Assembly: GCA_016521575.1 (NCBI GenBank)
Contig: JAEKDP010000004.1
Span: 124,001-188,000, forward strand
Reading direction: 5' to 3'
Source of the DNA: Rhodobacteraceae bacterium F11138
Lineage (GTDB): Bacteria; Pseudomonadota; Alphaproteobacteria; Rhodobacterales; Rhodobacteraceae
DNA length: 64,000 bases
Below the pieces are notes generated by a model. The model saw nothing but the letters and a program-made list of their open reading frames with translations, had not been told where the DNA came from and made no database searches. This document shows, in pieces, positions 3,720 to 63,992 of the stretch. A program made the position numbers and the translations under genes. Each line of letters starts with the position of its first letter. Position 1 is the stretch's first letter.

Positions 3720-4132
3720 TCCGGCTCGGCCACCAGCGCGACACAGGCAAATCCCACCCGCGCCTGTGTCGGCACACCGAACCGCGCGGTATGGCGCGCG
3801 GGCAGGCTCCTGGGGAAGTGTTTTACATACTCGGCATTCAGCGCGTGATAATCGGCCGGATCCGTAATCAGCATCGTGACTTGCACCACATGGTCAATAT
3901 CGCTGCCTGCCTGCGCCAGCAGCGTCTTGATATAGCCGATCGCGTTGCGAACTTCTTCGGCGGGCGTTTCGCCGCGATAAATGCCCGCATCCGGGTCATG
4001 CGGGGCGCTGTGGCCTGACACATAGATCATGCCACCGGCCTTGCACACGCGGCTGAACGGCCTGAGGGCACCCGGTTCCGGTTCGTCAAAGAGTTCTATT
4101 TTCGATGGCCGCACTTCATATGTCTCCGGCAA
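3716..4132 (-). CDS. RidA/YjgF/UK114-family enamine/imine deaminase, 138 aa
   Basis: The protein has the full RidA fold length and the pattern FSRVCKAGGMIYVSGHSA, a central helix NAIGYIKTLLAQAGS, and a C-terminal PARHTARFGVPT segment that keeps the arginine aligned with the catalytic Arg105 of E. coli RidA. RidA proteins hydrolyse reactive enamines and imines such as 2-aminoacrylate that escape from PLP enzymes. The gene is convergent with two PLP genes and overlaps the second by 4 bp, which fits a damage-control role for them; that link is inferred. It is divergent from the arsenic operon across a 144-bp gap. It could also belong to a pathway-specific RidA subfamily. Confidence 0.85.
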   Translation of the reverse strand: MPETYEVRPSKIELFDEPEPGALRPFSRVCKAGGMIYVSGHSAPHDPDAGIYRGETPAEEVRNAIGYIKTLLAQAGSDIDHVVQVTMLITDPADYHALNAEYVKHFPRSLPARHTARFGVPTQARVGFACVALVAEPD

Positions 4133-4240
4133 CGATTTCCCTGGGGCGCAACGATAATATCAAGTGCCCCGGCTGTCATCCCTAATGCCCGCCACACAGG
4201 GTGCCCCGGCCCGCCGACCCCAATCACGCCTGCTTTGAAG

Positions 4241-4269
4241 TTGACATCTTCCCGCTATTTCCATATTTC
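4241..4269 (+). promoter_or_regulatory. Probable sigma70-type promoter of the ars operon
   Basis: A perfect TTGACA lies at 4241-4246, followed after 17 bp by TATTTC at 4264-4269, which matches only three of six -10 positions. Initiation about seven bases downstream would fall at or next to the A of the ATG at 4277, implying a leaderless mRNA. The weak -10 is the main doubt. Confidence 0.5.
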
Positions 4270-4286
4270 CCGAAATATGGAAATAG
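4255..4286. promoter_or_regulatory. 32-bp palindrome, probable ArsR operator overlapping the start codon
   Basis: CTATTTCCATATTTC at 4255-4269 is an exact inverted copy of GAAATATGGAAATAG at 4272-4286, with CC between them. The dyad covers the probable -10 box and the proposed start codon at 4277. This is the expected place for an autorepressing ArsR-family operator. The palindrome is seen directly; the bound protein is inferred from the adjacent ArsR domain. Confidence 0.75.
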
Positions 4287-5116
4287 AACTTGCAAACCGG
4301 CTTGCCGTGCTTGGCCACCCACAGCGCCTGGCGGTGTTTCGCTTGTTGATGCGGCGCAACCCGGACGAAGTGGCCGCGGGCGACATCGGATCCGCGCTGA
4401 ACCTTCGCCCCAGCACCCTGTCATCCTATCTGGCGGCACTGATGCAGGCCGGACTGGTGGTGCAAACACGCCGGGGGACGCGGTTGCACTATTCGATCAA
4501 TGCGCAAAACGTCAGCAGGACCTTGGACGATCTGTTTCTGGATTGCTGTCGGGGGCGCCCCGAAATGTGTTCTTTCCTTCCCGTTAAATCCAAAGGCGAA
4601 ACTGTCATCATGGCCCATCCCAAGTTCAACGTCCTGTTTATCTGCACCGGAAATTCCGCCCGGTCGATCTTTGCCGAATCCATCTTGCGCAGCGTGGCCG
4701 GAGACCGGTTCAATGCGTATTCCGCCGGGACGTACCCTTCCTCTGAGGTGAACGGAAACGCGCTGCAGGTGCTGCGCGACAAGGGGCATGACGTGTCACA
4801 ATTACGCTCCAAGAACGTGTCCGAATTCCAGACCGAGGATGCCCCGGAATTCGATTTCGTCTTCACGGTTTGCGACCAGGCTGCGAACGAAGAATGTCCG
4901 ATCTGGGGGGCTCGGCCGATCAGTGCGCATTGGGGCATGCCGGACCCGGTCCAAACCGAAGGGACCGACGCACAGAAAAGCCTGGCCTTCCAGCAAGCCT
5001 ATGGCATCCTGAAGAACCGCATTGCGGCATTTGCGGCCCTGCCGCTGCGCGAACTGGATCGGGTGTCACTGCAACGCGCGGCGGATGATATCGCCCGGCA
5101 ATCAGAAACCGCCTGA
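4277..5116 (+). CDS. ArsR repressor fused to ArsC-type (LMW phosphatase fold) arsenate reductase, 279 aa
   Basis: Residues 1-98 form an ArsR-type winged helix (LGHPQRLAVFRLL, then the recognition region LRPSTLSSYLAAL) ending in Cys90, Cys91 and Cys98, much like the CC-x5-C arsenite site of Acidithiobacillus ArsR. Residues 113-279 form a thioredoxin-coupled ArsC: the P-loop C123-TGNSA-R129-S and the second cysteine pair in VCDQAANEEC. The product should both repress the operon and reduce arsenate to arsenite for the Acr3 pump 12 bp downstream. An in-frame ATG at 14 codons further upstream (4235) lies before the likely promoter and is rejected; 4277 gives the canonical ArsR N terminus. An internal ATG at 4610, preceded by AAAGGCGA, could also yield free ArsC. 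Confidence 0.88.
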   Translation: MEIELANRLAVLGHPQRLAVFRLLMRRNPDEVAAGDIGSALNLRPSTLSSYLAALMQAGLVVQTRRGTRLHYSINAQNVSRTLDDLFLDCCRGRPEMCSFLPVKSKGETVIMAHPKFNVLFICTGNSARSIFAESILRSVAGDRFNAYSAGTYPSSEVNGNALQVLRDKGHDVSQLRSKNVSEFQTEDAPEFDFVFTVCDQAANEECPIWGARPISAHWGMPDPVQTEGTDAQKSLAFQQAYGILKNRIAAFAALPLRELDRVSLQRAADDIARQSETA

Positions 5117-5128
5117 AAGACAAGCGCC

Positions 5129-6142
5129 ATGAACGTCTTTGAACGCTACCTGACACTGTGGATTGCCCTGGCCATGGTCGCCGGAATCGCAATCGGCAGC
5201 ACTGCGCCCGGACTGGTCCAGATCGTTTCCGAGGCAGAAATTGCCAATGTAAACTTGGTGGTCGCCGTGCTGATCTGGGCCATGGTCTATCCGATGATGG
5301 TGGGCGTAGATCCGCGATCGCTGAAAGGCGCCATACGTCAGCCAAGGGGCCTGGGCATCACCTTGGCGGTGAACTGGCTGGTCAAACCGTTTACCATGGC
5401 CATTCTGGCTGTGCTGTTCTTTCAGGTGATCTTTGCGCCATTCATCGATCCGCAGGACGCGCAGCAATATATCGCGGGACTGATCCTTTTGGGGGCGGCC
5501 CCCTGTACGGCGATGGTTTTCGTCTGGTCGCACCTGACGCGCGGCGATGAAAGCTATACGCTGTTGCAGGTTTCCGTGAATGACCTGGTGATGGTTTTTG
5601 CCTTTGCGCCCATCGTGGCCTTTTTGCTGGGGCTGACCGACATCCGCGTACCATGGCAGACATTGGTATTGTCGGTCATTCTGTTCGTGGCCCTGCCCCT
5701 TCTGGCTGGAATATGGACGCGCCGCCGACTGGGCGACCCGGCCCGGATTGATGCTTTTCAGATGCGGGCCAAGCCCTGGTCGATCATCGGGTTGATTGCC
5801 ACAGTGGTTATCCTGTTCGGGCTGCAAGGCCAGGTAATCCTGCAAAGCCCGCTGGTTATCGTCATGATCGCCGTACCGATCCTGCTTCAGAGCTATGGCA
5901 TCTTTGCCCTGGCGTATGGTGTTGCCTATGCGATGAAGGTCCCCCACAAGATCGCCGCTCCCTGTGCGTTGATCGGCACGTCGAACTTCTTCGAACTTGC
6001 GGTCGCCGTCGCCATCAGCCTGTTCGGGCTGAACTCGGGGGCCGCATTGGCGACAGTCGTCGGGGTTTTGGTCGAGGTTCCGGTCATGTTGTCACTGGTG
6101 GCATTTGCCAACCGGACCCGGTCCAAATTCGCGACATCCTGA
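5129..6142 (+). CDS. acr3: Acr3-family arsenite efflux permease
   Basis: This 337-residue hydrophobic protein has about ten membrane segments. It carries the Acr3/BART-superfamily signature [15 protein letters not shown] with the essential cysteine of transmembrane segment 4, plus VNDLVMV and a late [10 protein letters not shown] segment. Acr3 exports arsenite, and sometimes antimonite, across the inner membrane using the proton gradient. It begins 12 bp after the ArsR-ArsC gene, so the two-gene operon supplies sensor, reductase and pump. It should be derepressed by arsenite through the upstream palindrome. A terminator-like hairpin follows 45 bp after the stop. Identification is firm. Confidence 0.93.
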
Positions 6143-6186
6143 ACCTGCATACCGGGTTGCCGCCTGGAAACTCTGCCTGAATTTGG

Positions 6187-6224
6187 TGATCCGTGGCCGG
6201 AAAATGTCTTCTGGCCACGGATCA
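6187..6224 (+). terminator. Terminator-like hairpin after acr3
   Basis: TGATCCGTGGCC at 6187-6198 pairs exactly with GGCCACGGATCA at 6213-6224 around a 14-nt loop. There is no long T run after it, so intrinsic termination may be weak. It closes the ars operon before the ABC operon promoter. Confidence 0.6.
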
Positions 6225-6331
6225 ATTCCCCCAGAAAGATCTATATATAAAGCTATTTCAAAATATTACATCAAGAAACCAATGTAATTGTTGAAGATGA
6301 AAGAACGGATATTCGTTTCATGAAAGAATCT

Positions 6332-6361
6332 TGACAGAATCCCTGAACCAATTCTTAAATG
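6332..6361 (+). promoter_or_regulatory. Probable promoter of the peptide ABC/ggt operon
   Basis: TTGACA at 6332-6337 and TTAAAT at 6356-6361 are spaced 18 bp, in a locally AT-rich stretch. Transcription would begin near 6368, which supports the ATG at 6389 and excludes an in-frame ATG at 6359 as the start of the first ATPase gene. Confidence 0.5.
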
Positions 6362-6388
6362 GTTCAAACGCAGGGAGACCCAAGCCAG

Positions 6389-7396
6389 ATGAGCCAGGAC
6401 CCAACGACCGCCGACGCGCCCTTGTTGCGGATCCGCGATTTCAGCCTGCGGTTCAAAGGCCATGCCGTCCCGGTCGTATCGGGGGTAAATCTGACAGTCA
6501 GCGCCGGGGAAACCCTGTGCATCGTAGGCGAGTCCGGCTGCGGCAAAAGCGTCACCTCCATGGCCATCATGGGGTTGCTTCCGAAAGGCGCGGCGCGGAT
6601 CGAATCCGGTGAAATGCATTTTGACGGTCACGACTATGATCTGCGGCAACAGGTTCTGCCGCATTCAGCGCGCGGTGACCGCATGGCCATGATCTTTCAG
6701 GAACCGATGACATCGCTCAATCCGGCCTTTCGCATCGGCGATCAGATCGCAGAAGCCATTCTGTGCCATGCCCAGGTGCCGCGCGCGCACGCCATGGAGC
6801 GGGCAGCAGATATGCTGCGGCAGGTGGGCATCCCCGCCCCCGGGCAACGGCTGCATGAATATCCGCACCAACTGTCCGGCGGCATGCGCCAACGTGTCAT
6901 GATCGCGATGGCGCTGGTGAACAACCCCGCCCTGTTGATTGCCGACGAACCGACAACCGCCCTGGACGTTACCATTCAGGCGCAGATCCTGGACCTGATC
7001 CGCGATCTTCAGACCCGATCGAACATGGGCACCATCATGATCACGCACGACCTGGGCGTGGTTGCCGAGATCGCCACTTCGGTGGCGGTCATGTACGGTG
7101 GGCAGATTGTCGAAAGCGGGCCCGTGGGGCGCATATTCGACGATCCCCAGCATCCATATACCATCGGGCTCATGGCCTCGATGCCCGCGTTGACCGGGCC
7201 GCGTGGACGCCTGGCCACCGTGCCCGGGACCGTACCCGGTATCGACGCCATGCCATCGGGCTGCCGGTTCCGCAGCCGGTGCCCGTTTGCGGCGGCGCTG
7301 TGCGCGACTGTCCCGCCGATGCAGGATCTGGGGGCCGGTCACGGGGCGGCCTGTCATTTCGCACCACTGGACCAGCGTTTGGCGGTCAGCGCATGA
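6389..7396 (+). CDS. Peptide/glutathione-type ABC importer ATPase 1 (DppD/OppD-like)
   Basis: The start at 6389 is chosen because AGGGAGA lies at 6372-6378; an earlier ATG at 6359 overlaps the promoter. The 335-residue protein has Walker A GESGCGKS, a Q-loop FQEPMTSLNP, signature LSGGMRQRVMIA, Walker B LLIADEPTTALD, and the C-terminal oligopeptide-transporter extension with GCRFRSRCPFA, which often binds an Fe-S cluster in this family. It is one of the two ATPases powering a family-5 binding-protein importer at the inner membrane. Its stop overlaps the next start as ATGA, showing translational coupling. Confidence 0.93.
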   Translation: MSQDPTTADAPLLRIRDFSLRFKGHAVPVVSGVNLTVSAGETLCIVGESGCGKSVTSMAIMGLLPKGAARIESGEMHFDGHDYDLRQQVLPHSARGDRMAMIFQEPMTSLNPAFRIGDQIAEAILCHAQVPRAHAMERAADMLRQVGIPAPGQRLHEYPHQLSGGMRQRVMIAMALVNNPALLIADEPTTALDVTIQAQILDLIRDLQTRSNMGTIMITHDLGVVAEIATSVAVMYGGQIVESGPVGRIFDDPQHPYTIGLMASMPALTGPRGRLATVPGTVPGIDAMPSGCRFRSRCPFAAALCATVPPMQDLGAGHGAACHFAPLDQRLAVSA

Positions 7397-8487
7397 GCGA
7401 CACAATTCTGCAGGCCCGCAATCTGGTCAAACATTTCAAGGTCAACGCGGGTTTCCTGCGCCCCGGCGATACGGTGCATGCGGTCGATGGCATTTCGCTG
7501 AACATCCAGCGCGGCGAAACATTTGCGATCGTAGGGGAATCCGGCTGCGGCAAATCCACTCTGGCGCGGTTGCTCATGCGGTTGCTGACCCCGACAGAAG
7601 GCACGATCCTGTTTGAAGGTGAACCGGTCGGGCAATTCGGCGGGCACGAGTTGCGCCAGCTGCGTCGCGATCTGCAATTCATCTTTCAGGACCCCTTTTC
7701 GTCGCTGAACCCCCGGCTGACGGTTGGCAAGCTGATCGCTGAGCCGCTCGAACTGCATGCGCCGGAGCTGTCAGCGGCGCAGCGGCGCGAACGGGTGGCC
7801 GAGCTGTTGGCAAAAGTCGGATTGATGCCCGAGCATGCCACCCGGTATCCGCATGAATTTTCCGGCGGTCAGCGCCAGCGTATCGGGATCGCCCGCGCGC
7901 TGGCCGCAGGGCCCAAGCTGGTCATCGGCGACGAACCGGTATCCGCGCTGGATGTATCTGTGCAGGCCCAGGTCATAAACCTGCTGAGCGACCTGGGCCG
8001 CGAACTGGACCTGACGCTGGTGATCATTGCCCATGACCTGGCCGTGATCCGCCATATGAGTGACCGGGTCGCGGTGATGTATCTGGGCCAGATCGTCGAA
8101 ACCGGTCCCACTGATGCGGTGTTCGATTCGGCCCGCCACCCCTATACCCGGTTGTTGCTGGATTCCATTCCCGTCGCCGAGCATGGCGCCCGCGGCGAAA
8201 CCAAGCCGGTCACAGGTGAAACCCCCAGCCCGCTGAATCCTCCGGCCGGTTGTCGGTTCCACACACGGTGTCCCCATGTGCAGGACCGCTGCAGGACGGA
8301 AAACCCGGTTCTGACCGAAGCTGCACATTCGGTGGCCTGCCACTATTGGCGCGAGATTGCACAAACCGCAACACGCGCCGCCCCCAAACCCCGCAACAGC
8401 GGGGCACAAGCGCGGTTCGATCTGTACCGCGCCGCCGCAGATGGTGAAAAAATCATCACAATAAACCAACAAGGAAACACAGAATGA
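7393..8487 (+). CDS. Peptide/glutathione-type ABC importer ATPase 2 (DppF/OppF-like)
   Basis: The start at 7393 shares ATGA with the preceding stop; longer readings extend into the upstream gene and are not credible. The 364-residue ATPase has Walker A GESGCGKS, FQDPFSSLNP, signature FSGGQRQRIGIARALA, Walker B VIGDEPVSALD and the C-terminal GCRFHTRCPH module. It pairs with the upstream ATPase as the nucleotide-binding half of the importer. The gene ends in ATGA overlap with the binding-protein gene, so ATPases, binding protein and permeases form one unit. Confidence 0.93.
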   Translation: MSDTILQARNLVKHFKVNAGFLRPGDTVHAVDGISLNIQRGETFAIVGESGCGKSTLARLLMRLLTPTEGTILFEGEPVGQFGGHELRQLRRDLQFIFQDPFSSLNPRLTVGKLIAEPLELHAPELSAAQRRERVAELLAKVGLMPEHATRYPHEFSGGQRQRIGIARALAAGPKLVIGDEPVSALDVSVQAQVINLLSDLGRELDLTLVIIAHDLAVIRHMSDRVAVMYLGQIVETGPTDAVFDSARHPYTRLLLDSIPVAEHGARGETKPVTGETPSPLNPPAGCRFHTRCPHVQDRCRTENPVLTEAAHSVACHYWREIAQTATRAAPKPRNSGAQARFDLYRAAADGEKIITINQQGNTE

Positions 8488-10007
8488 CACATCTCAAATC
8501 GACTCTTCTGGCCAGCCTGCTGGGGGCTACGGCCATCGGCCTGGCCGTCCCCGCCATGGCCGCCGATCTGCGCATCGCGCTGCAATCGGATGCTGACGTG
8601 CTGGACCCCGACCAGTCACGCACCTTCGTTGGCCGCATTGTCTATACCGCGCTTTGCGACAAGCTGGTCGACATTACCCCCGATCTCGAATTCGTACCGC
8701 AGCTGGCCACCGAATGGTCCTGGTCAGACGATGGCACCGCGCTGACCATGAAATTGCGTGAGGGGGTGGTGTTCCATGACGGCACGCCATTTGACGCCCA
8801 GGCCGTCGCCGACAACATCACCCGCAGCCAGACCATGGAGGAAAGCCGCCGCAAGTCAGAACTGAAATCCATCACCGGCACCGAAGTTCTGGGCAGCCAC
8901 GAGATCAGGTTCAACCTGGCCGGTCCCGATGCGACCCTGCTGGCGCAGTTTGCCGACCGCGCGGGCATGATGGTATCGCCCACAGCCGCTGCCGAAGCGG
9001 GTGCCGATTTCGGCCTGAACCCGGTCTGTTCGGGCCCCTTCTCTTTTGCCGAGCGTGTGGCGCAGGACCGGATCGTGCTGAACAAATTCGCGGATTACTG
9101 GAACGCGGATGAGATCAATTTCGACAGCGTGACCTATTTGCCGATCCCCGATACGACCGTGCGTCTGGCCAACCTGCAATCGGGCGATATCGACATGCTG
9201 GAACGTCTGGCGGCGACCGATCTTGCACAGGCCAAATCAAACGCGGCGGTACAGGTCGAAAGCGCGGTATCGCTGGGATATCAGGGGATAACCTTCAACA
9301 TCAACAACGGTGAAAAAGGCGACAACCCCTGGGGCAATGACAAGCGGCTGCGCCAGGCGCTAAGCTATGCGATCGACCGCGAAGCGATCAATCAGGTGGT
9401 GTTCGAAGGCGCCTTTGCCGCTGGCAACCAGCCCGTCGCGCCCAGTTCGCCCTGGTACAACGCCGACTTCCCGGTTCCCGCGCGTGATCTGGACAAGGCC
9501 AAGGCCCTTCTGGCCGAAGCCGGATATCCCGACGGGATCGATCTTGAAGTTCAGGTGCCCAATACCACCGTACCGTTGCAACTGATGCAGGTGGTGCAGG
9601 CCATGGCCGCCGAAGCCGGGATCAACATCTCCATCACGTCCAAGGAATTCGCCACATTGCTGTCGGATCAATCCGCGGGCGATTATCAGGCCAGCCAGAT
9701 CGGGTGGTCGGGCCGGGTCGATCCGGATGGCAACAACCATCAGTTCGTGACCACCGGCGGCGGTATCAACGACAGCAAGTATTCCAACGAAGAGGTCGAC
9801 CGCCTGATGAATGCCGCCCGCACCAGCAATGACGCGGCGGAACGCAAGGCCAACTATGACGCCGCGCGCGCGATCCTGAACGAAGACCTGCCCCGGATGA
9901 TGATCTATCACCAGACCTGGATCTGGGCGCTGGATGACTCGATCAAGGGCTTTGTGCCTTATCCCGACGGGATGATCCGCCTCGAAGGCATGTCCAAGGC
10001 CGAATGA
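8484..10007 (+). CDS. Periplasmic solute-binding protein, family 5 (peptide/glutathione-like)
   Basis: The protein has a clear signal peptide (cleavage after AVPAMA) followed by a family-5 binding domain: VLDPDQSRTF near the mature N terminus, LREGVVFHDGTPFDA, and RQALSYAIDREAINQVVFEGA. This family captures di- and oligopeptides, glutathione, nickel or related solutes in the periplasm and hands them to the two permeases. The co-operonic gamma-glutamyltransferase suggests a gamma-glutamyl compound or glutathione as ligand, but that is inference. A strong hairpin starts 7 nt after the stop, probably setting a higher level of this protein than of the membrane subunits. Confidence 0.92.
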   Translation: MTHLKSTLLASLLGATAIGLAVPAMAADLRIALQSDADVLDPDQSRTFVGRIVYTALCDKLVDITPDLEFVPQLATEWSWSDDGTALTMKLREGVVFHDGTPFDAQAVADNITRSQTMEESRRKSELKSITGTEVLGSHEIRFNLAGPDATLLAQFADRAGMMVSPTAAAEAGADFGLNPVCSGPFSFAERVAQDRIVLNKFADYWNADEINFDSVTYLPIPDTTVRLANLQSGDIDMLERLAATDLAQAKSNAAVQVESAVSLGYQGITFNINNGEKGDNPWGNDKRLRQALSYAIDREAINQVVFEGAFAAGNQPVAPSSPWYNADFPVPARDLDKAKALLAEAGYPDGIDLEVQVPNTTVPLQLMQVVQAMAAEAGINISITSKEFATLLSDQSAGDYQASQIGWSGRVDPDGNNHQFVTTGGGINDSKYSNEEVDRLMNAARTSNDAAERKANYDAARAILNEDLPRMMIYHQTWIWALDDSIKGFVPYPDGMIRLEGMSKAE

Positions 10008-10013
10008 TCCTTG

Positions 10014-10039
10014 CGGCCCGCGCGGGATTGCGCGGGCCG
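10014..10039 (+). terminator. Post-binding-protein hairpin followed by T-run (attenuator or mRNA stabiliser)
   Basis: CGGCCCGCGC at 10014-10023 pairs with GCGCGGGCCG at 10030-10039 around a 6-nt loop, followed by ATTTTC. It sits between the binding-protein gene and the first permease gene and may cause partial termination or protect the upstream message. Confidence 0.65.
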
Positions 10040-10059
10040 ATTTTCTGAAAGTTGGTTCC

Positions 10060-11004
10060 ATGCTGCCCTTCATCCTGCGCCGCATCATGATTGCGATCCC
10101 GACGATCATTCTGATCTCGATGTTCGTTTTCGCCCTGCAGAAACTGCTGCCCGGTGATCCGGTTCTGGCCATGGCCGGCGAAGAGCGCGATCCCCAGGTG
10201 CTGGAATTCCTGCGCGAAAAATACCGCCTGAACGATCCCATCCCGGTGCAATATGTCACCTGGGTCGGCAATGCGCTGACCGGCGATCTGGGCATTTCGC
10301 TGCGCACCAACCAGCCGGTGCTGGAACTGATCGGGCAGAAACTGCCTGTGACCATTCAACTGGCGGTGATGGCGATGTGCTTTGCGCTGCTGATCGGCAT
10401 CCCGGCGGGCATCCTGTCGGCGGTGAACAAGGGCACCGTTACCGACTATGTGGCCAATGTGGTGGCGCTGTCGGGCCTGTCCATCCCGAATTTCTGGCTT
10501 GGAATAATGCTGATTCTGCTTGTGTCGGTCAAATGGCAGCTGCTACCCGCCTCGGGGTATGTGCCGCTGTCCGAAGACCCGGTGAAATCAATCACCACCA
10601 TGATCATGCCCGCCTTCGTGCTGGGCACGGCATTGGCCGCCACCCTGATGCGGCACACGCGATCCGCGATGCTGGAGGTCTTGACCGCCGATTACATCCG
10701 TACCGCCCGCGCCAAGGGCGTGCTGGAAAAACGCGTGGTACTCAAACACGCATTCCGCAACGCGCTGACCCCCATTGTCACCCTGACGGCTTTGCTGTTC
10801 GGGGAATTGATCGCGGGGGCGGTTCTGACCGAACAGATCTTTACCATCCCCGGCTTCGGCAAACTGGTGGTGGATGCGGTTTTCAATCGGGATTACGCCG
10901 TGGTGCAGGGGATCGTGCTGATCACCGCCATCGGGTTCATCCTGATGAACCTGCTTGCGGATGTTCTGTATGTTCTGCTGAACCCGCGTCTGAGGGGGCA
11001 GTAA
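10060..11004 (+). CDS. ABC importer permease 1 (DppB/GsiC-like)
   Basis: This 314-residue permease has an N-terminal membrane anchor (RRIMIAIPTIILISMFVF), the typical segment LPGDPV, and the inner-membrane coupling loop EVLTADYIRTARAKGV that docks on the ATPase. About six membrane segments are visible. It forms the translocation pore with the next gene product. The hairpin upstream and the 52-bp gap from the binding-protein gene suggest lower expression than the binding protein. Family assignment is firm and the substrate is open. Confidence 0.92.
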   Translation: MLPFILRRIMIAIPTIILISMFVFALQKLLPGDPVLAMAGEERDPQVLEFLREKYRLNDPIPVQYVTWVGNALTGDLGISLRTNQPVLELIGQKLPVTIQLAVMAMCFALLIGIPAGILSAVNKGTVTDYVANVVALSGLSIPNFWLGIMLILLVSVKWQLLPASGYVPLSEDPVKSITTMIMPAFVLGTALAATLMRHTRSAMLEVLTADYIRTARAKGVLEKRVVLKHAFRNALTPIVTLTALLFGELIAGAVLTEQIFTIPGFGKLVVDAVFNRDYAVVQGIVLITAIGFILMNLLADVLYVLLNPRLRGQ

Positions 11005-11005
11005 C

Positions 11006-11887
11006 ATGGCAACACAAGCCCGAACCGATCTGGCCGACCCGGTCCTGGCGCGCAAGCCGCAGAACCGCGTATGGAAGAAATTCCGCAGTCATCGCAGCGC
11101 GATGCTGGGCGGGATATTGGTGACGTTCTTCATCCTGATGGCACTGGCCGCGCCAATCCTGCCCATTCCGGACCCGGCGGCGACCGACTGGGGCGCGGTT
11201 CGCAAAGCCCCCAGCGCCGCCCATTGGATGGGTACGGATGAAATCGGCCGCGATGTGCTGGCACGCATGATCTGGGGCGCGCAGGCGTCATTGCTGGCGG
11301 GTGTCGTATCCGTCGGCATCGCGCTGCTTTTCGGCGTGCCGCTGGGCATCGTGTCAGGCTATTTCGGGGGCTGGACCGACGCGGTGATATCGCGCTGCAC
11401 CGAGGCCCTGCTGGCAGCGCCATTCCTGATCCTGGCCATCGCACTGGCCGCTTTCCTTGGGCCGTCCTTGACCAATGCAATGATCGCCATCGGAATTTCG
11501 GCAATGCCGATCTTTGTGCGGCTGACGCGCGGCCAGGTTCTGAACATCAAGACCGCAGATTATGTGGAATCCGCCCATGCCATCGGGCTGCCCGCCCATC
11601 GCATATTGTCGCGTTATATCTTTCCCAACGTGCTGCCACCGATTCTGGTACAGGCGACCCTGACCATTGCCACCGCCATCATCGCCGAAGCCTCGCTGTC
11701 GTTTCTGGGCCTTGGCCAACAACCCCCGGCGCCAAGCTGGGGCTCGATGCTGAACACCGCCAAGAACTTTCTCAGTCAGGCCCCCTGGATGGCCATGTGG
11801 CCGGGAATTGCGATCTTTCTTGTCGTACTTGGCTTCAACCTTCTGGGCGACGGGCTGCGCGATGCGCTGGACCCGCGCGAACACTGA
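11006..11887 (+). CDS. ABC importer permease 2 (DppC/GsiD-like)
   Basis: This 293-residue permease begins one base after the stop of permease 1. It has the DppC features: an N-terminal transmembrane segment, the periplasmic motif HWMGTDEIGRDVLARMIWG, the coupling loop NIKTADYVESAHAIG and a late GLGQQPPAPSWGSML segment. It completes the heterodimeric channel of the importer. The ggt-like gene follows after 14 bp, with its own strong ribosome-binding site, so the operon continues. Confidence 0.92.
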   Translation: MATQARTDLADPVLARKPQNRVWKKFRSHRSAMLGGILVTFFILMALAAPILPIPDPAATDWGAVRKAPSAAHWMGTDEIGRDVLARMIWGAQASLLAGVVSVGIALLFGVPLGIVSGYFGGWTDAVISRCTEALLAAPFLILAIALAAFLGPSLTNAMIAIGISAMPIFVRLTRGQVLNIKTADYVESAHAIGLPAHRILSRYIFPNVLPPILVQATLTIATAIIAEASLSFLGLGQQPPAPSWGSMLNTAKNFLSQAPWMAMWPGIAIFLVVLGFNLLGDGLRDALDPREH

Positions 11888-11901: not shown

Positions 11902-13692
11902 ATGTCAGACTTTACCACCCGCCCCGAAATTCGCGGCACCTTCGGGGTCGTGACATCGACACATTGGCTGGCCTCTTCCGTCGGGTTCGGCGTTCTGGAA
12001 AAGGGGGGCAACGCCTTTGATGCCGCCGTGGCCACGGCCTTTGCACTGCAAATCGTCGAACCCCATCTGAACGGACCGGCAGGCGACATGCCCGCGATCC
12101 TGCATACTGCCGAAACCGGCGAAACCAAGGTGCTGTGCGCCCAGGGCGTCAGCCCGGCGGCCGCAACCGTCAAGGCATATACCGATCAGGGGCTCAGCCT
12201 GGTGCCCGGCTCGGGGCTGCTGGCCACGGTTGTGCCCGGCGCCTTCGATGGCTGGCTGATGATGCTGCGCGATCATGGCACGATGAGCCTGCGCGAGGTG
12301 CTGCAACCGGCCATCGATTATGCCCGCGACGGCCATCCGATCCTGCCGCGCGTCGCAAACACCATCGCGGATCTGCAGGAGTTCTTTGAAACCGAATGGC
12401 CCACATCCGCGGCCGTATGGTCGCCGGACGGGCAGGCTCCGGCACCGCATGCCCTGTTCAGAAATCCCGATCTGGCCAGAACCTATGACCGGCTGGCGGA
12501 GGTAGCAGACACCGCTGGCGGCGACCGCCGCGCGCAAATCGATGCCGCGCGTGCCGAATGGCGCGAAGGTTTCGTCGCACAGGCGATTTTCGACTATCTC
12601 AAGGACGCCAGCGTGATGGACGTGTCCGAGAAAAAGCACAGTGCGCTTCTCGCGCCGTCGGACATGGCCGACTGGCGCGCTACCTATGAAGAAACCCTGA
12701 CGCTGGACTACCACGGCTGGACCGTTCACAAGACCCACGCCTGGAGCCAGGGACCGGTGATGTTGCAGGCGCTGTCGATCCTGAAGAATTTCGATCTTGG
12801 GGCAATGGACCCCGATGGAGCGGAATTCGTGCATACGGTGATCGAGGCGATGAAGCTGGCCTATGCGGACCGCGAAGCCTATTACGGCGACCCGGATTAC
12901 AGCGAAATACCGATGGAGCACCTGCTGTCGGATGCCTATGGTGCCGAGCGTGCCAAGCTGATCGACACAACCGCGTCGATGGACCAACGCCCCGGACGGG
13001 TCCCGGGTTTCGAACATCTGGCGGATGCCTATCTTGCCCGCTCGGTTCAGGATTTCGGGGTCGAAGGTGTGGCCGCGCAGGAACCCACCATGGCGCATCT
13101 GACCGAGAAACGCGGCGACACCGTGCATCTGGACGTGATCGACCGCTGGGGGAACATGGTGGCGGCGACACCGTCGGGCGGCTGGTTGCAGAGCAGCCCG
13201 GTCATTCCCGGCCTTGGCTTTCCGCTGAACTCGCGCGCGCAGATGTTCTGGCTGACCGACGGCTTGCCCACCTCGATGGCCCCGAAACGCCGCCCGCGCA
13301 CCACGCTGACCCCGTCTTTTGCCGAAAAGGACGGCGCGCGGCTGGTGTTTGGCACGCCCGGCGGCGATCAGCAGGACCAGTGGAACCTGATCTGGTTCCT
13401 GCGTTTCGTGCATCACGGGCTGGGGTTGCAACAGGGAATGGACGCACCGCTGTTTCACACCATGCATTTTCAGGGATCGTTTTTCCCGCGCGAGGTAAAA
13501 CCCGGCGAAATGATGATGGAGCCCGCCTTTGACGCGCAGGTGATCGACAGCTTGCGCGCGCGCGGGCATATCGTCACCGTGTCCGAGCCTTGGGCCGTGG
13601 GTCGCTTGACCGCCGCCATGCGTGAGGCCGACGGAATGCTGCGCGCCGCTGCGACGCCGCGCCTGATGCAGGCCTATGCGGTGGGCCGATGA
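11902..13692 (+). CDS. ggt: Gamma-glutamyltransferase-family Ntn-hydrolase, predicted cytoplasmic, 596 aa
   Basis: The start at 11902 follows CGGAGAA; a longer reading overlaps the permease gene. The protein matches gamma-glutamyltransferases: GGNAFDAAVATAFALQIVEP, then GPAGDMPA, and the autoprocessing site GDTVHLDVID, in which Thr407 is the expected nucleophile at the start of the small subunit. A GTPGGDQQDQWN segment lies near the C terminus. These enzymes cleave or transfer gamma-glutamyl groups from glutathione and related amides. No signal peptide is visible, unlike periplasmic E. coli Ggt, so it probably acts on compounds delivered by the co-transcribed importer. It overlaps the DUF1028 gene by ATGA. 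Confidence 0.88.
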   Translation: MSDFTTRPEIRGTFGVVTSTHWLASSVGFGVLEKGGNAFDAAVATAFALQIVEPHLNGPAGDMPAILHTAETGETKVLCAQGVSPAAATVKAYTDQGLSLVPGSGLLATVVPGAFDGWLMMLRDHGTMSLREVLQPAIDYARDGHPILPRVANTIADLQEFFETEWPTSAAVWSPDGQAPAPHALFRNPDLARTYDRLAEVADTAGGDRRAQIDAARAEWREGFVAQAIFDYLKDASVMDVSEKKHSALLAPSDMADWRATYEETLTLDYHGWTVHKTHAWSQGPVMLQALSILKNFDLGAMDPDGAEFVHTVIEAMKLAYADREAYYGDPDYSEIPMEHLLSDAYGAERAKLIDTTASMDQRPGRVPGFEHLADAYLARSVQDFGVEGVAAQEPTMAHLTEKRGDTVHLDVIDRWGNMVAATPSGGWLQSSPVIPGLGFPLNSRAQMFWLTDGLPTSMAPKRRPRTTLTPSFAEKDGARLVFGTPGGDQQDQWNLIWFLRFVHHGLGLQQGMDAPLFHTMHFQGSFFPREVKPGEMMMEPAFDAQVIDSLRARGHIVTVSEPWAVGRLTAAMREADGMLRAAATPRLMQAYAVGR

Positions 13693-14429
13693 CCTGGTCG
13701 ATCATAGCCCGCGACCCGTCAGGCGGGGCCATCGGGATCGCAGTGGCCAGCCGGTTTTTCGCCTGCGGCGCGATGGTGCCCTATGTGGGGGCCAACACTG
13801 CGGTGGCAAGCCAGGCCTTCTGCAACCCGATCTGGGGCACCGAGGGGCGCGCGCGCCTTGAGGCCGGTGAACCGGCAACGGCTGTGCTGGCGGATTTTGT
13901 CGAACGTGACCAAGGTCAGGCCATTCGGCAATGCCACATGATGGATGCAAATGGACAGTTCATGGCCCATACCGGCAAGGATTGCACCGATTGGGCCGGG
14001 CATCTGATCGGCGACGGGTTTTCGGTCGCCGGTAACATGCTGGCCGGGCCACAGGTGGTCCAGGCCACGGCAGAAGCTCTGGCGGCGTCTTGTGACCTGC
14101 CCCTGCCCCGGCGGTTGCTGAGCGCCATGCAGGCAGGCGAGGCCGCCGGAGGAGACAAGCGCGGCAAACAGGCAGCGGGTTTGGTCATTCACCACGGCCA
14201 GGCCCATCCCTGGCTGGATCTGCGGGTCGACGATCATGGCGATCCGCTGAGCGAACTGGAACGCCTGCTGGACGTGGCGGCCGAAAGATATCTATATGTT
14301 GCCGACGAAATGCCCACCCGCCAACGATTTTCCGGACGTCCCGACCGGGACGCTTTGGATGCGAAAATTTACCGGGAAGAGAAACGTCGCCAGCAAGCAG
14401 GCGAAATCAGCCGTTCCTTGGCAACCTGA
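13689..14429 (+). CDS. DUF1028 family protein (Ntn-hydrolase-like, function unknown), 246 aa
   Basis: The N terminus MTWSIIARDPSGGAIGIAVASRFFACGAMVPY and the segment GWAGHLIGDGFSVAGNMLAG-like (here DWAGHLIGDGFSVAGNMLA) match the DUF1028 family, which is thought to have an Ntn-hydrolase-like fold. The gene is translationally coupled to the ggt gene by ATGA. A cytoplasmic step in breakdown of the imported gamma-glutamyl compound is a reasonable inference; no activity can be assigned. A short C-terminal tail rich in charged residues follows the domain. Confidence 0.82.
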   Translation: MTWSIIARDPSGGAIGIAVASRFFACGAMVPYVGANTAVASQAFCNPIWGTEGRARLEAGEPATAVLADFVERDQGQAIRQCHMMDANGQFMAHTGKDCTDWAGHLIGDGFSVAGNMLAGPQVVQATAEALAASCDLPLPRRLLSAMQAGEAAGGDKRGKQAAGLVIHHGQAHPWLDLRVDDHGDPLSELERLLDVAAERYLYVADEMPTRQRFSGRPDRDALDAKIYREEKRRQQAGEISRSLAT

Positions 14430-14456
14430 CCCTGAACCATCTGACAGGACATTCGC

Positions 14457-15134
14457 GTGCAGACAGATCAAGACGTCAAAAGCCAGATCATGTCCCTGCT
14501 GGATACCAACGCACCCGGCACCAGCGGAAGATTGCCCAGCGAACGGGCCCTGTCCGAGCGGTTTCGAATTGGCCGCCGCCGCATTCGCGATGCGCTGGCA
14601 CAGCTTGAATCCGAGGGGCTGATCTGGCGAAAGCAGGGTGCAGGCACCTTTGCCGGGCGCGCGATCGACCCGACCGGCGAACTGGCCGCGCGCGTCGCTG
14701 GCGAAACCAACGCAATTCAGGTCATGGAGGCGCGGCTGTGTGTCGAACCCGAACTGGCCGCGCTGTGCGCGCAACGCATCCAACCCGCGGCAGTGTCCCA
14801 GCTGCGCGCCCTGGCGGGGCGCATGAAGCCTGACTTGTCCAACCAGGAAAACGAACTGTGGGACAGTGCGTTGCACCGGCTGATCGCGGAAGAGGCACAT
14901 AACAAGCCATTGCTGACCTGTTTTGCGATGCTTGACGAAATCCGCGCCAATGCCGACTGGGTGGCCTTTCGCGCCCGTGCCCGCGCGCCCGGCTCGTTCG
15001 CGCAAACCCTGCATCAGCATTCGGCCATCATCGATGCCATTGCGTCAGGCAACGCCGAAGATGCGCGCTCGGCCATGCACCGGCATCTGAACATGCGTTT
15101 CACGGCCCTGCGCGCGGAAATGACCGATCTCTGA
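14457..15134 (+). CDS. GntR/FadR-subfamily transcriptional regulator, 225 aa
   Basis: The start is a GTG at 14457. Residues 1-70 form a GntR winged helix (LPSERALSERFRIGRRRIRDALAQLESEGLIWRKQGAGTF) and the remainder is an all-helical FCD ligand-binding domain (ELWDSALHRLIAEEAHN; MHRHLNMRF at the end). FCD regulators usually repress catabolic operons and respond to a carboxylic-acid ligand. The gene lies 27 bp after the DUF1028 gene, last in the ABC/ggt operon, so it most likely regulates that operon. No clear palindromic operator was recognised upstream of 6389. Confidence 0.88.
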   Translation: MQTDQDVKSQIMSLLDTNAPGTSGRLPSERALSERFRIGRRRIRDALAQLESEGLIWRKQGAGTFAGRAIDPTGELAARVAGETNAIQVMEARLCVEPELAALCAQRIQPAAVSQLRALAGRMKPDLSNQENELWDSALHRLIAEEAHNKPLLTCFAMLDEIRANADWVAFRARARAPGSFAQTLHQHSAIIDAIASGNAEDARSAMHRHLNMRFTALRAEMTDL

Positions 15135-15243
15135 CGCGTTTCGCGCTCAACCTTTCAGACTGATAAGTTCAGCAAGATCAAATTGTTCCGAGAAATGGTT
15201 GATTCTATAGTTCAAGCGAAGGTTTCATAACCGCGCCCAAGCC

Positions 15244-15945
15244 TCAGGAAAGTGAAACGAAATAATCCAACGCATCGGTGCGGTTGATGCTGCGCCGCAA
15301 TTCCACAACGCGCTCCAGCACATCCACAGCCCTGCGGCGCACGTCCATTACCGGGGTGCCCGCATCAAGTCCCAGGGCCTTTGCGCTGGCTTCGGGCGCC
15401 CCGATCGCGCCAAGCCGTTCATCTGCGCGCACGATAATGACGGAATAGGCCTGCTGATAAAAGACATAGAGCGTGTTGGGCAGAGGCTGACGTTCCGCAA
15501 TCCCCGGGAACATGGCCGCAGGGATCACGGACATTTCGTGGGTGACGGGCTGCCCGCCAATGCTGCGGACCCTTTCGATTTCGATAACATCCTCAGGGGA
15601 GCCATGCAGGTCTGCCCGCTCTGTATCGGTTGCGCTGCGCCGCGTGACCGTTTCACGATCAAGCTGGGGTCCTTCGAGCGTTCCATCCGGATGCCGCAAG
15701 CGGAAGAAGTTGAACAGCGACGTCTCGGGCGTGCGCACCGTGACAAATGTCCCCCGCCCTTGCGCGCGCTGAACAAGGCCGCTTTGTTCCAGCTCCATCA
15801 GGGCCTTGCGGGCGGTGCCCTGACTGACGCCCAGCTCGGCGCCCAGTTGGGTTTCGCTGGGCAGCATGGTTCCCGACGGCAACTCGCCTGAAGCGATTCG
15901 TTCAACGATTGTGTCGATCACAGTTCGGTACAGCGGTGTAGCCAT
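15244..15945 (-). CDS. GntR/HutC (UTRA) regulator, probable regulator of sulfolactate genes (SuyR-like)
   Basis: Residues 1-75 form a GntR winged helix (LPSETQLGAELGVSQGTARKALMELEQSGLVQRAQGRGTFV) and the rest is a UTRA effector domain (IERVRSIGGQPVTHEMSVIPAAMFPG). It is divergent from suyA across 144 bp. UTRA regulators typically repress until a pathway metabolite binds. A dyad overlapping the probable suyA transcription start is the best operator candidate. That it senses sulfolactate or sulfopyruvate is inferred from position only. Confidence 0.87.
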   Translation of the reverse strand: MATPLYRTVIDTIVERIASGELPSGTMLPSETQLGAELGVSQGTARKALMELEQSGLVQRAQGRGTFVTVRTPETSLFNFFRLRHPDGTLEGPQLDRETVTRRSATDTERADLHGSPEDVIEIERVRSIGGQPVTHEMSVIPAAMFPGIAERQPLPNTLYVFYQQAYSVIIVRADERLGAIGAPEASAKALGLDAGTPVMDVRRRAVDVLERVVELRRSINRTDALDYFVSLS

Positions 15946-61965: not shown

Positions 61966-62200
61966 TGTACCGTCCCGGGTTTGCCGGAGAGTTTGTGGTT
62001 CAATGATTGGGCTGCTTTTTCGGCATTGTTCAAGATTGCGTAGAATACTCCTCTGCTTGGTTCGGCGTCACGTATCCGATGGTGCTGTGCAGGCGCGTCT
62101 TGTTGTACCAGCCGACCCATTCGAGGGTTTACCATTCGAGTTGACCAACGGATTCCCACGGGCCGGAGAACGTGATGGCCTCGGTCTTGAACATGCCTGA
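61966..62200 (-). mobile_element. IS3-family insertion sequence remnant (transposase OrfB 3' end)
   Basis: On the minus strand, from 62194 to 62030, the frame reads MFKTEAITFSGPWESVGQLEW, a TAA at 62129-62131, then TLEWVGWYNKTRLHSTIGYV and TPNQAEEYSTQS. This is the C-terminal end of an IS3-type OrfB transposase (the family's GPW...LEWVxWYN...RLHSTIGY), broken by one in-frame stop. TGTACCGTCCCGGG at 61966 is a plausible IS end. The upstream two thirds of the element are missing, so it cannot transpose by itself. Confidence 0.7.
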
Positions 62201-62470
62201 CGTCAGCACCCACCTGTGAACGTGACGCGGGGCTACCTCCCGCGCAACGGTCATCCAGAAATGGCGCAAGTCTCCCGGCTTCGTCAGAGGCAGTTTGTCC
62301 AGCACATCCAAGTGCTCCTCCTTGCGCTGCGCAGGACGCGCGACGGGAACACCCATTCGCAATCATCATAGCGAATTTCGTGAAGGCGTTTATACAACCT
62401 GACCACATCGTCCGCTAGTCCTTGTAATCGCCTTCGCGTTACAAGGTTCATGTTATGTTCTAACCGCACT
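62200..62470 (-). pseudogene. Frameshifted C-terminal remnant of a tyrosine recombinase (integrase)
   Basis: Two minus-strand frames together read DDCEWVFPSR (near 62355) and, shifted, EEHLDVLDKLPLTKPGDLRHFWMTVARE (62240-62300), which resembles the region before and including the H-x-L-R box of phage-type integrases. The frameshift and lack of the N-terminal half show that it is dead. The IS3 remnant cuts off its end. Similarity is short, so the call is tentative. Confidence 0.45.
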
Positions 62471-62551
62471 CAAACCCAACCACAGATTGCGCAAGCACCT
62501 CATTTCATTGAGGTAATTGCTTTGGAATTCGGTGTTTAGCTGGTGTTTTAA

Positions 62552-62600
62552 TGGTGCCCCCACACGGACTCGAACCGCGGACCTACTGATTACAAATCAG
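62552..62600 (-). tRNA. 3' fragment of tRNA-Thr(UGU), probable attachment site of the adjacent element
   Basis: Read on the minus strand, 62600-62552 gives the anticodon arm GCTGA-TTTGTAA-TCAGT with anticodon TGT, the variable loop, a T arm (CGCGG-TTCGAGT-CCGTG) and the 3' acceptor strand ending in GGGGGC-A-CCA. The 5' acceptor strand and D arm are absent: sequence beyond 62600 is unrelated. It is therefore not a working gene. Its break within the anticodon stem region and the integrase gene 166 bp away fit an att core left by site-specific integration. Confidence 0.8.
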
Positions 62601-62667
62601 CCACCAAGATTTATTCAACAAGTCCAGCTTGGTGCGGTTTCATAGCAAAAACAATATTTTACCACCT

Positions 62668-62748
62668 TTTTCAAACGATAATCAGTTGGTTGATTATCCA
62701 TGTTGATCCGTCTAAGTGTTGCGTAGCGTTTGAAAATACGTTTGAAAA
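62668..62748. repeat. Cluster of CGTTTGAAAA repeats and a hairpin between att core and integrase
   Basis: CGTTTGAAAA occurs inverted at 62668-62677 and twice directly at 62727-62736 and 62739-62748 (12-bp period). Between them GATAATCA at 62677-62684 and TGATTATC at 62691-62698 form an 8-bp inverted repeat. Arrays of short sites in this place are typical arm-type sites for integrase or operators of its regulator. Confidence 0.6.
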
Positions 62749-62765
62749 AGAGACGGAGATTGCCC

Positions 62766-63992
62766 ATGACGACCGCCATCAACCTCGACAGTGTGCCCAA
62801 GGTTCGCAACGCCGCGAAGAACAAGCCAGACAAGGGCACGATTTGGTACTCCCATGACGGCGACAAATACCCGTGCCTCTACCTCGGCGTCGGCAAACGT
62901 GCTGCCACGTGGTATTTCAAAGGACGTTTAAACGGGCGATCACAGCAAAAGGCGCTCAAGGCGACCTTCCCCGAAACGACCGCCGCACAGGCATTCGAAA
63001 AGATTGCAACTCTGACTGAGTATCACACAGGCGTCGCATCCTCGGACATCCGCACGGTTAGGGACGCTTGGGAACATCACTGCACCACGCGACAGTCGGA
63101 AGGCAAAATGTCGGACAGGCACAGAAGTGACATGACGACGAAGCTCGACCGATGGGTGCCCGAGATCATGGACGCATCGCCAACCGACGTTTCAACGATC
63201 ATGATCCAAAGCGCGGTCAACGCCATCGACACGGGGCGTGGAGACAACTCTGCTGCCACCAAGCGACATGTCCGCGTGGCGTTGTCGTCAGCGTTCAAAC
63301 GCCTACCCGGCAAAAACCCGGTTGAGAACGTGACTGTCCCCGACGCGAATGAACAGCCACCGATTTGGTATGACCTCTGCGACGACAACCGCGATCTCGA
63401 ACGAGAAGACCTTTCGACCGTTTGGGGCGCGATATGGGAGAAACGGCAGCAGAATGTGATTATGGGAACGGCGTGGGTGGTCATGTTCTTCACAGGCATC
63501 CGCTCCGAAAACGTCTGCTCGCTTCGTTGGGAACGCGACGGCAAACATGGCTTCGTTGACCTGCAACGCCGCGAGCTTGTGTTCCCTAAATTGAAGTCAG
63601 GCATCCGCAACCATGTCATTCCTATTGGGGCAAGCGTTGCCGATGCATTGCAGGCGATACGCCTGACGGACAGCGATTGGGTCTTCCCCGCTTCATCCGC
63701 AACAGGATACGTTGGGGGCGGGCACGGCCTTGATACCCTCAAAGCCAAGATAGGCGAAAAACGCGTCCCTGTCATTCGGGCGAAAGACACGCGGAAGTTT
63801 TTCCAAGAGGCGTGCAACGAAGCTCTGTTGGGTGATCACATCATGCACTACCTGCGCGGAGACAAGTCATCCACGGGTGACGGAAAAATGCTCTCGAAGT
63901 ACACAACCCGCGTCGGCAAGAGCGCGCCCGACATGATTGAAACGGTATTCTTCGAACGCATTAAGGTAGAACCTGCTTTCGACATTGAATGA
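62766..63992 (+). CDS. Tyrosine recombinase/integrase of a genomic island, 408 aa
   Basis: The start at 62766 follows GACGGAGA; an ATG at 62730 lies inside the repeats. The N-terminal part has a SAM-like core-binding region (SDIRTVRDAWEHHCTTRQSEG). The catalytic domain shows the first arginine in VMFFTGIRSENVCSLRW, the beta-hairpin lysine in FPKLKSG, the second arginine in AKDTRKFF and the nucleophile tyrosine in MLSKYTTRV. The usual H of H-x-x-R appears to be lysine, and the G-H box reads LRGDKSS. GC content is lower than the surrounding chromosome, consistent with transfer. It is adjacent to the tRNA-Thr fragment and reads into the element beyond the window. Confidence 0.88.
   Translation: MTTAINLDSVPKVRNAAKNKPDKGTIWYSHDGDKYPCLYLGVGKRAATWYFKGRLNGRSQQKALKATFPETTAAQAFEKIATLTEYHTGVASSDIRTVRDAWEHHCTTRQSEGKMSDRHRSDMTTKLDRWVPEIMDASPTDVSTIMIQSAVNAIDTGRGDNSAATKRHVRVALSSAFKRLPGKNPVENVTVPDANEQPPIWYDLCDDNRDLEREDLSTVWGAIWEKRQQNVIMGTAWVVMFFTGIRSENVCSLRWERDGKHGFVDLQRRELVFPKLKSGIRNHVIPIGASVADALQAIRLTDSDWVFPASSATGYVGGGHGLDTLKAKIGEKRVPVIRAKDTRKFFQEACNEALLGDHIMHYLRGDKSSTGDGKMLSKYTTRVGKSAPDMIETVFFERIKVEPAFDIE

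Follow-up and report, generated by a model that had tools for sequence, protein, structure and literature searches.

The analysed window, a stretch of 64,000 nucleotides from Rhodobacteraceae bacterium F11138 (G000:C23:124001-188000, in the numbering of contig C23), carries near its right edge what is probably the integrase end of a decayed 14.2 kb member of a family of phage-satellite-like islands found mostly in Rhodobacteraceae. The best reading of this family, drawn from sequence comparison, is that of PICI-like satellites that would depend on Nanhaivirus-like helper phages, resize their heads and be packaged in them.

Ends of the element and target tRNA

The left att repeat of the element (62544..62600, minus strand) forms a 57-nt direct repeat of 96% identity with a second copy at C23:200686-200742, which gives an element of 14,199 bp (C23:186544-200742). 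Within the left copy, the 49 nt at 62552-62600 correspond on the minus strand to the 3' portion of tRNA-Thr(TGT), which is present from the 3' end up to and including the anticodon stem-loop; from 62601 on, the sequence departs from the tRNA. A 49-nt 3' fragment of tRNA-Thr(UGU) lacking the 5' half had been described in a sequence-only reading of this DNA, together with the prediction that the element extends to higher coordinates up to an intact tRNA-Thr(UGU), to be sought downstream in the same orientation with a matching repeat. ARAGORN found zero tRNAs within the window, and the search downstream bore out the prediction: a whole tRNA-Thr(TGT), overlapped by the second repeat copy, was located at C23:200694-200769 (minus strand), 14.1 kb downstream and in the same orientation. 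With its integrase and a direct repeat that restores an intact tRNA, this is a tRNA-targeted integrated element.

The element-bearing genome holds two copies of the fragment and the congeners G001, G002 and G004 one each, so that the copy number follows the presence of the element; no copy was found in congener G003 (85% complete). G001 is identical to the left copy at 55 of 55 nt, bases past the tRNA end included, as expected if the left copy retains the original chromosomal flank. No exact empty site sharing the left flank was recovered; in the congeners this flank could not be located next to the tRNA, and the empty state therefore rests on copy number. The tRNA-Thr(TGT) of G002 has genes read as phage-like on its flanks, and a long att repeat was not found in that region. 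Matches to plasmids were restricted to tRNA-sized pieces of about 1% of the element.

The tyrosine recombinase next to the fragment is intact (62766..63992, plus strand, 408 aa; phrog_1, 5.2e-25), as had been reported, and its reading frame begins with an ATG at 62766, 165 nt beyond the tRNA fragment. It retains R246, K277, R343 and Y379, each conserved in 34 or 35 of the 35 family integrases (own included), which we take to be the catalytic residues by comparison with the tyrosine recombinase family. Three exact copies of CGTTTGAAAA are present in the window, all of them between att and integrase, with one at 62668..62677 (minus strand) and two in tandem at 62727..62748 (plus strand); three copies were reached in 0 of 100 shuffles. 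Relatives that use this target have preserved much of the stretch between att and integrase, and the CGTTTGAAAA copies are candidate arm sites to which the integrase may bind. Integrases at 44-46% identity were detected in five of the 394 family genomes, each of which has a tRNA fragment of 49-59 nt beside the integrase and an intact tRNA 13.5-16 kb off. Weak integrase matches (24%) in two Acinetobacter records were rejected.

Immediately outside the element, the sequence-only reading had noted a broken integrase and an IS3 remnant, and both proved real. The former is a frameshifted C-terminal integrase piece (62162..62442, minus strand) with a tblastn match to the L086 integrase (E 2e-15) in two frames, of 57% over 35 aa and 44% over 55 aa, which places it in the sister integrase group L080/L082/L086. 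It is fused to left-end DNA of this related element type (62438..62514, minus strand; 71-77% identity to the left ends of L080, L082 and L086), which the att fragment abuts from the opposite side. As this sister-group remnant adjoins the same att fragment on the other side, the suggested earlier use of the site is supported. The IS3-type remnant (61966..62128, minus strand) consists of a 38-nt end at 61966-62003 and a transposase C-terminus at 62033-62128, a 32-aa piece that matches rve_3 (3.6e-6). The 38-nt IS-like end recurs at C23:201041-201078 (92%), and is thus present on both outer sides of the element.

A family of elements of uniform length and gene order

For the family, 62 loci (5 + 17 + 40) were examined, of which 57 were distinct after removal of five duplicates. 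Both att copies were found in 36 of these; in the other 21 one end or the long repeat is missing, in several cases since the contig or the fetched stretch ends. The duplicates, removed before the 36 were counted, were L098, L105, L119, L120 and L123. Also dropped were L078 (43-nt repeats of 88% identity that lie 10.5 kb from each other, at tRNA-Thr(CGT)), L122 (a 37-nt repeat cut by the locus end, on the same contig as L091) and further loci without a repeat of the required length, and L096 alone was counted for L094 and L096, which show 98.6% identity over 9 kb. The 36 relatives measure 13,112-16,006 bp (mean 14,600, sd 682), 28 of them falling between 13.1 and 14.9 kb and eight between 15.2 and 16.0 kb; repeats could be detected over spans of about 6-20 kb, so that the narrow spread was not imposed, and longer elements may be missed.

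Relatives of the C-terminal terminase protein TerL-C (see below) are present in 28 of the 394 family genomes, own genome included, and in 40 named loci, 38 of which name Proteobacteria in their titles, mostly Rhodobacteraceae. The named loci include Rhodobacter capsulatus DSM 1710, Ruegeria, Roseovarius and Nitrobacter sp. Nb-311A, and two are gut MAG contigs. Scans of IMG/VR with the main-subgroup TerL-C and with the portal gave no confirmed relative; a TerS-like protein at 86% was found there on one contig and divergent TerL-C at 19-34% in 23 contigs (loci L136-L159). Two family members close together in one genome were observed twice, as L028/L083 (G298) and as L091/L122 (Roseovarius MAG OX638333.1).

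The usual order is integrase, AlpA, primase, mini-scaffold (C4), TerS-like protein, two-gene TerL, variable cargo and tRNA. When the ORFs of 37 elements (the 36 relatives and the window's) were clustered, the integrase was recovered in 35, AlpA in 35, TerL in 37, the TerS-like protein in 35 and C4 in 34, the window's copy being without the latter two. Primases are of several kinds across the elements, with primase-type clusters in many, and a DUF4055 portal occurs in ten elements, all among the relatives (for L085, phrog_145 at 5.3e-98). The TerS-like assignment draws on position, an HTH and a predicted helical model (mean pLDDT 67.8), and comparison of the model with the PDB gave no match at E<=0.001. 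Judged by sequence and gene order, these elements are a coherent family, mostly of Rhodobacteraceae.

In L079, L080, L082, L084, L086 and L088 it is the 5' half of the tRNA that is duplicated instead of the 3' half. The left copies of L080 and L082 are also incompatible with the acceptor stem of their intact tRNA. Simple integration fails to account for these cases.

The variable cargo lies behind TerL and often appears to consist of defence genes. Ten hand-picked cargo proteins were scanned with PADLOC, which led to strong matches for L116 (PDC-M36A), L115 (Drt9), L093 (PDC-S06) and for L091 and L112 (type II methyltransferases), clear and less specific ones for L103 (UvrD/GajB-like) and L107 (OLD/AriA-like), a weak one for L092 and no match for the cargo proteins of L095 and L117. 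A minus-strand gene pair, C10 and C11, was detected in eight of the 37 elements, the window's included, and lies near the right end in the relatives; in the window's copy the two genes are 69% and 59% identical to those of Roseovarius litorisediminis L103.

Two-gene terminase large subunit

The terminase large subunit is maintained as two genes. TerL-N, of about 260-290 aa, matches Terminase_6N and phrog_7579 (1.5e-28 and 5.9e-11 against terminase models), and TerL-C, of about 240 aa, matches phrog_27743 at 3.8e-29 and, weakly, a TerL family. Two TerL ORFs were resolved in 33 of the 37 elements, all 33 pairs being in different frames and 16 overlapping by exactly 16 nt; outside these, the same split was seen by eye in L028, and L086 and L117 have a single ORF. 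In the window's copy a GGAGG precedes the TerL-C start codon. Either reinitiation or a frameshift product may be involved in the expression of the pair. D42, D113 and D213 of TerL-C were invariant in six sequences and may be its nuclease residues. A simple Walker A pattern was present in 29 of the 37 elements; those without it are the window's copy and seven elements of the portal subgroup, and absence of the pattern alone is therefore weak evidence. TerL-C of both subgroups gave no match at 1e-5 among 50,697 phages. In two gut MAG contigs (L128, L129), TerL-N and TerL-C pieces of about 30% identity lie side by side, and from this arrangement the split may be old.

Likeness to Nanhaivirus phages

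A profile of 34 C4 proteins gave a single match among 546 ORFs of Dinoroseobacter phage R5C, which was the head scaffold (1.5e-13, over its last 32 residues), and a single match among 206 ORFs of two stretches of Pseudanabaena phage Pan1, which was the gene preceding the coat gene. In the reverse direction, a profile of the head scaffolds of R5C, R26L and Pan1 matched 33 of 3,846 ORFs; all of these were C4, in 33 of the 36 relatives, and no match was obtained in L080, L090 and L130. Eight of ten printed C4 proteins end within about 10 residues of the motif, as does the phage scaffold. The shared part is short (about 32 residues and a weak helix) and Ala/Lys-rich. A tblastn search with two C4 proteins against the 50,697 phages gave nothing at E<=1, a negative result that we ascribe to a lack of power for a match of 32 residues, and the C4 model had no match at E<=0.001 in a viral structure library. 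In P22 and other phages it is the scaffold C-terminus that binds the coat protein.

The portal points to the same phages. Among the 12 listed of 1,526 phage matches to the L085 portal, Nanhaivirus came first at 42-47%, with the rest at or below 31%, and the R5C portal matched ten elements at 28-51%. The R5C primase was matched by seven of nine C9 primases (best 4e-22). In cluster C11 (L003:9041-9745, minus strand, and relatives), two of eight proteins weakly match the region of R5C gp093, which lies near the phage replication genes (best for L126, 23% over 136 aa); that C11 is a clamp-like protein would be a guess.

With the Nanhaivirus phages, namely R5C and R26L of Dinoroseobacter and Pan1 of Pseudanabaena, the elements have in common the portal, the tail of the scaffold and, in part, one type of primase. 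The phages differ from the elements in their genomes of 72-80 kb, and R5C in its coat and tail genes, its one-gene terminase and the lack of an integrase; as its terminase is one gene, the helper terminase is not the source of the element TerL. In an excerpt of PMC5454422, R5C is described as a lytic phage with no integrase and a prolate head of 114 x 70 nm.

When the core representatives were scanned against Pfam and PHROGs, integrase, primase, terminase and portal families came up, with major capsid and tail families absent. For 38 proteins of L085, L092, L112 and L116, none of the best 25 of 40 PHROG families (1e-4) was named capsid or tail, and the coat, major tail, tape-measure, head-morphogenesis and terminase proteins of R5C gave no tblastn match in the 37 elements. 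The head and tail genes that, with lysis genes, characterise a prophage were not found in the proteins scanned. It is possible that a novel capsid protein hides among the unannotated core proteins C5, C6 and C7.

Content and decay of the copy in the window

In locus L003, the coordinates of which are converted to those of contig C23 by adding 184000, the integrase (2766-3992, plus strand; phrog_1) is followed by an AlpA-like gene (4158-4430; Phage_AlpA, 7.6e-7) and, from 4427, by a remnant of the TerL N-half with the last 144 residues, in which the Walker B region is kept and the Walker A region missing. Nothing is left between AlpA and the middle of TerL-N. The TerL C-half is whole (4846-5583) and 97% identical to that of Rhodovulum robiginosum L096, the N-half of which has the Walker A motif. 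A 761-aa protein (5645-7930, minus strand), the N-terminus of which weakly resembles a defence nuclease model (E 0.0068), and three further minus-strand genes (8090-9745) come next. Homology to the L103 right end breaks off near 9784, and since a Prim-Pol match begins there, the segment from this point to the tRNA (G+C up to 64%) looks foreign and added. It starts with a primase-helicase piece (9736-11343) whose matches to other elements fall mostly in the AAA part; for the rest of the segment a source was not found. Next come a capsid gene of the HK97 type (11929-12972; 3e-10), a 126-aa ORF (13498-13878) that has no Pfam match and that we take, by likeness, to be a small-terminase-like protein, and a KAP-type NTPase (14071-15882; PDC-S49, 6.5e-84), a candidate defence gene.

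The capsid gene had been considered as the key to the element and was rejected, as it is part of the added foreign DNA and the sole member of its cluster. It had no relative among the assembled genome contigs or the viral contigs (IMG/VR) scanned; in 198 family genomes one match besides its own was found (L006) and judged spurious, and short matches of about 80 residues were seen in six phage records. The sole other Phage_capsid match in the host genome (G000:C12:445106-445954, 305.6 bits) possibly belongs to a gene transfer agent.

The window's copy has preserved its integrase and att best, and it also retains AlpA and cargo. Its own primase, scaffold and TerS are gone, as is the Walker A portion of its terminase; from these losses, excision should still be possible, whereas replication and packaging on its own should not. 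At 14.2 kb, the copy again lies inside the length range of the family, which may be chance. By its gene content, the window's element is a decayed, composite member of the satellite-like family.

Interpretation of the family

An intact member might work as follows. Infection by a Nanhaivirus-like phage would turn on AlpA, and the integrase would recombine the two tRNA copies near the anticodon stem-loop, giving an excised circle which the element primase would help to copy. The mini-scaffold would recruit helper coat protein via its borrowed tail to form a small head, TerS and the two-gene terminase (together with an own portal in one subgroup) would fill this head with about 14.6 kb, and helper tails would deliver the element, along with its defence genes, to the tRNA gene of a new host. 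If this is true, the helper head would shift from prolate to small, at about 45 nm by a volume estimate.

Phage-type genes throughout, and a damaged copy with a capsid gene in the window, would also be expected from ordinary prophage remnants, each reduced on its own to integrase, primase and packaging genes. This origin is quite improbable: the 36 relatives agree in order and length (sd 0.68 kb), both TerL halves are resolved open frames in 33 of 37 elements, and R5C-type coat, major tail and tape-measure proteins had no tblastn match in any of the 37, so that random decay is unlikely. Nor do we favour a defence island that relies for its movement on the integrase alone or on another element, with the packaging genes as mere passengers. 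The frequency of defence cargo and the good preservation of integrase and att in the window's copy would fit such an island, which is made very improbable by packaging genes that rank among the most conserved (TerL 37/37, TerS-like 35/37, C4 34/37).

The resizing step itself invites a different doubt, namely that the elements are satellites which leave the head size unchanged, C4 being a regulatory or DNA-binding protein whose scaffold likeness reflects a small shared helical motif. The shortness and Ala/Lys-rich composition of the match would agree with this, as would the lack of a significant structural match for C4 and of a phage tblastn match at E<=1. Set against it are the exclusiveness of the profile searches in both directions, which linked C4 to the head scaffold and the head scaffold to C4, the position of the motif at the C-terminus in eight of ten printed C4 proteins, as in the phage scaffold, and the tight element length, and we consider it unlikely. 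We thus prefer the reading as head-resizing, PICI-like satellites. The broader proposal, of an undescribed and widespread alphaproteobacterial satellite family that lives on Nanhaivirus-like lytic phages, imposes small heads by a shortened helper scaffold, loads these with a two-gene terminase of its own (and, in one subgroup, a portal), and ferries defence genes between tRNA genes, stands in our view at even chances; a description of the family was not found in the open-licence papers searched.

Comparison with known satellites

Phage satellites are well studied in few bacterial groups. With a family from Rhodobacteraceae, a candidate helper genus, a scaffold-like gene and a two-gene terminase, capsid hijacking would become testable in culturable marine bacteria, and a possible route for the spread of defence genes among marine bacteria would come into view.

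PICIs are defined, in an excerpt of PMC6092414, by an integrase, a replication module and a master regulator in conserved order, a size of typically 12-15 kb, att sites never used by prophages, and induction and packaging by a helper phage; capsid-forming PICIs are named in an excerpt of PMC11389934. Measured by that excerpt of PMC6092414, the family shows the order (integrase 35/37, AlpA 35/37), the window's copy being without the replication module, and also the size, with 13.1-16.0 kb in the relatives and 14.2 kb in the window. As in the Gram-negative PICIs presented there (PMC6092414), an integrase at one end, AlpA, a replication module and a TerS-like protein are combined in about 15 kb with accessory defence genes and a duplicated att. 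The family differs from them, as far as the same excerpt goes, in its own two-gene TerL, its scaffold-like protein, a portal in 10/37 elements, its occurrence mostly in Rhodobacteraceae and the Nanhaivirus-like nature of portal, scaffold tail and one primase type. PICIs are to be free of structural genes, and owing to the portal subgroup (10/37) and the scaffold-like gene (33/36 relatives) the family is not filed as one; nevertheless, it would work like a PICI in its predicted excision, helper dependence and packaging.

Capsid-forming PICIs carry their own major capsid protein and packaging genes. The family shares with them the own packaging genes and differs in that no major capsid gene was recognised in the relatives' proteins scanned. 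In SaPI1 (CpmB) and P4 (Sid), a satellite protein steers assembly of the helper coat protein to a small head, and CpmB borrows the coat-binding tail of the helper scaffold. The same principle would apply here to C4, as deduced from sequence alone, in a different group of phages.
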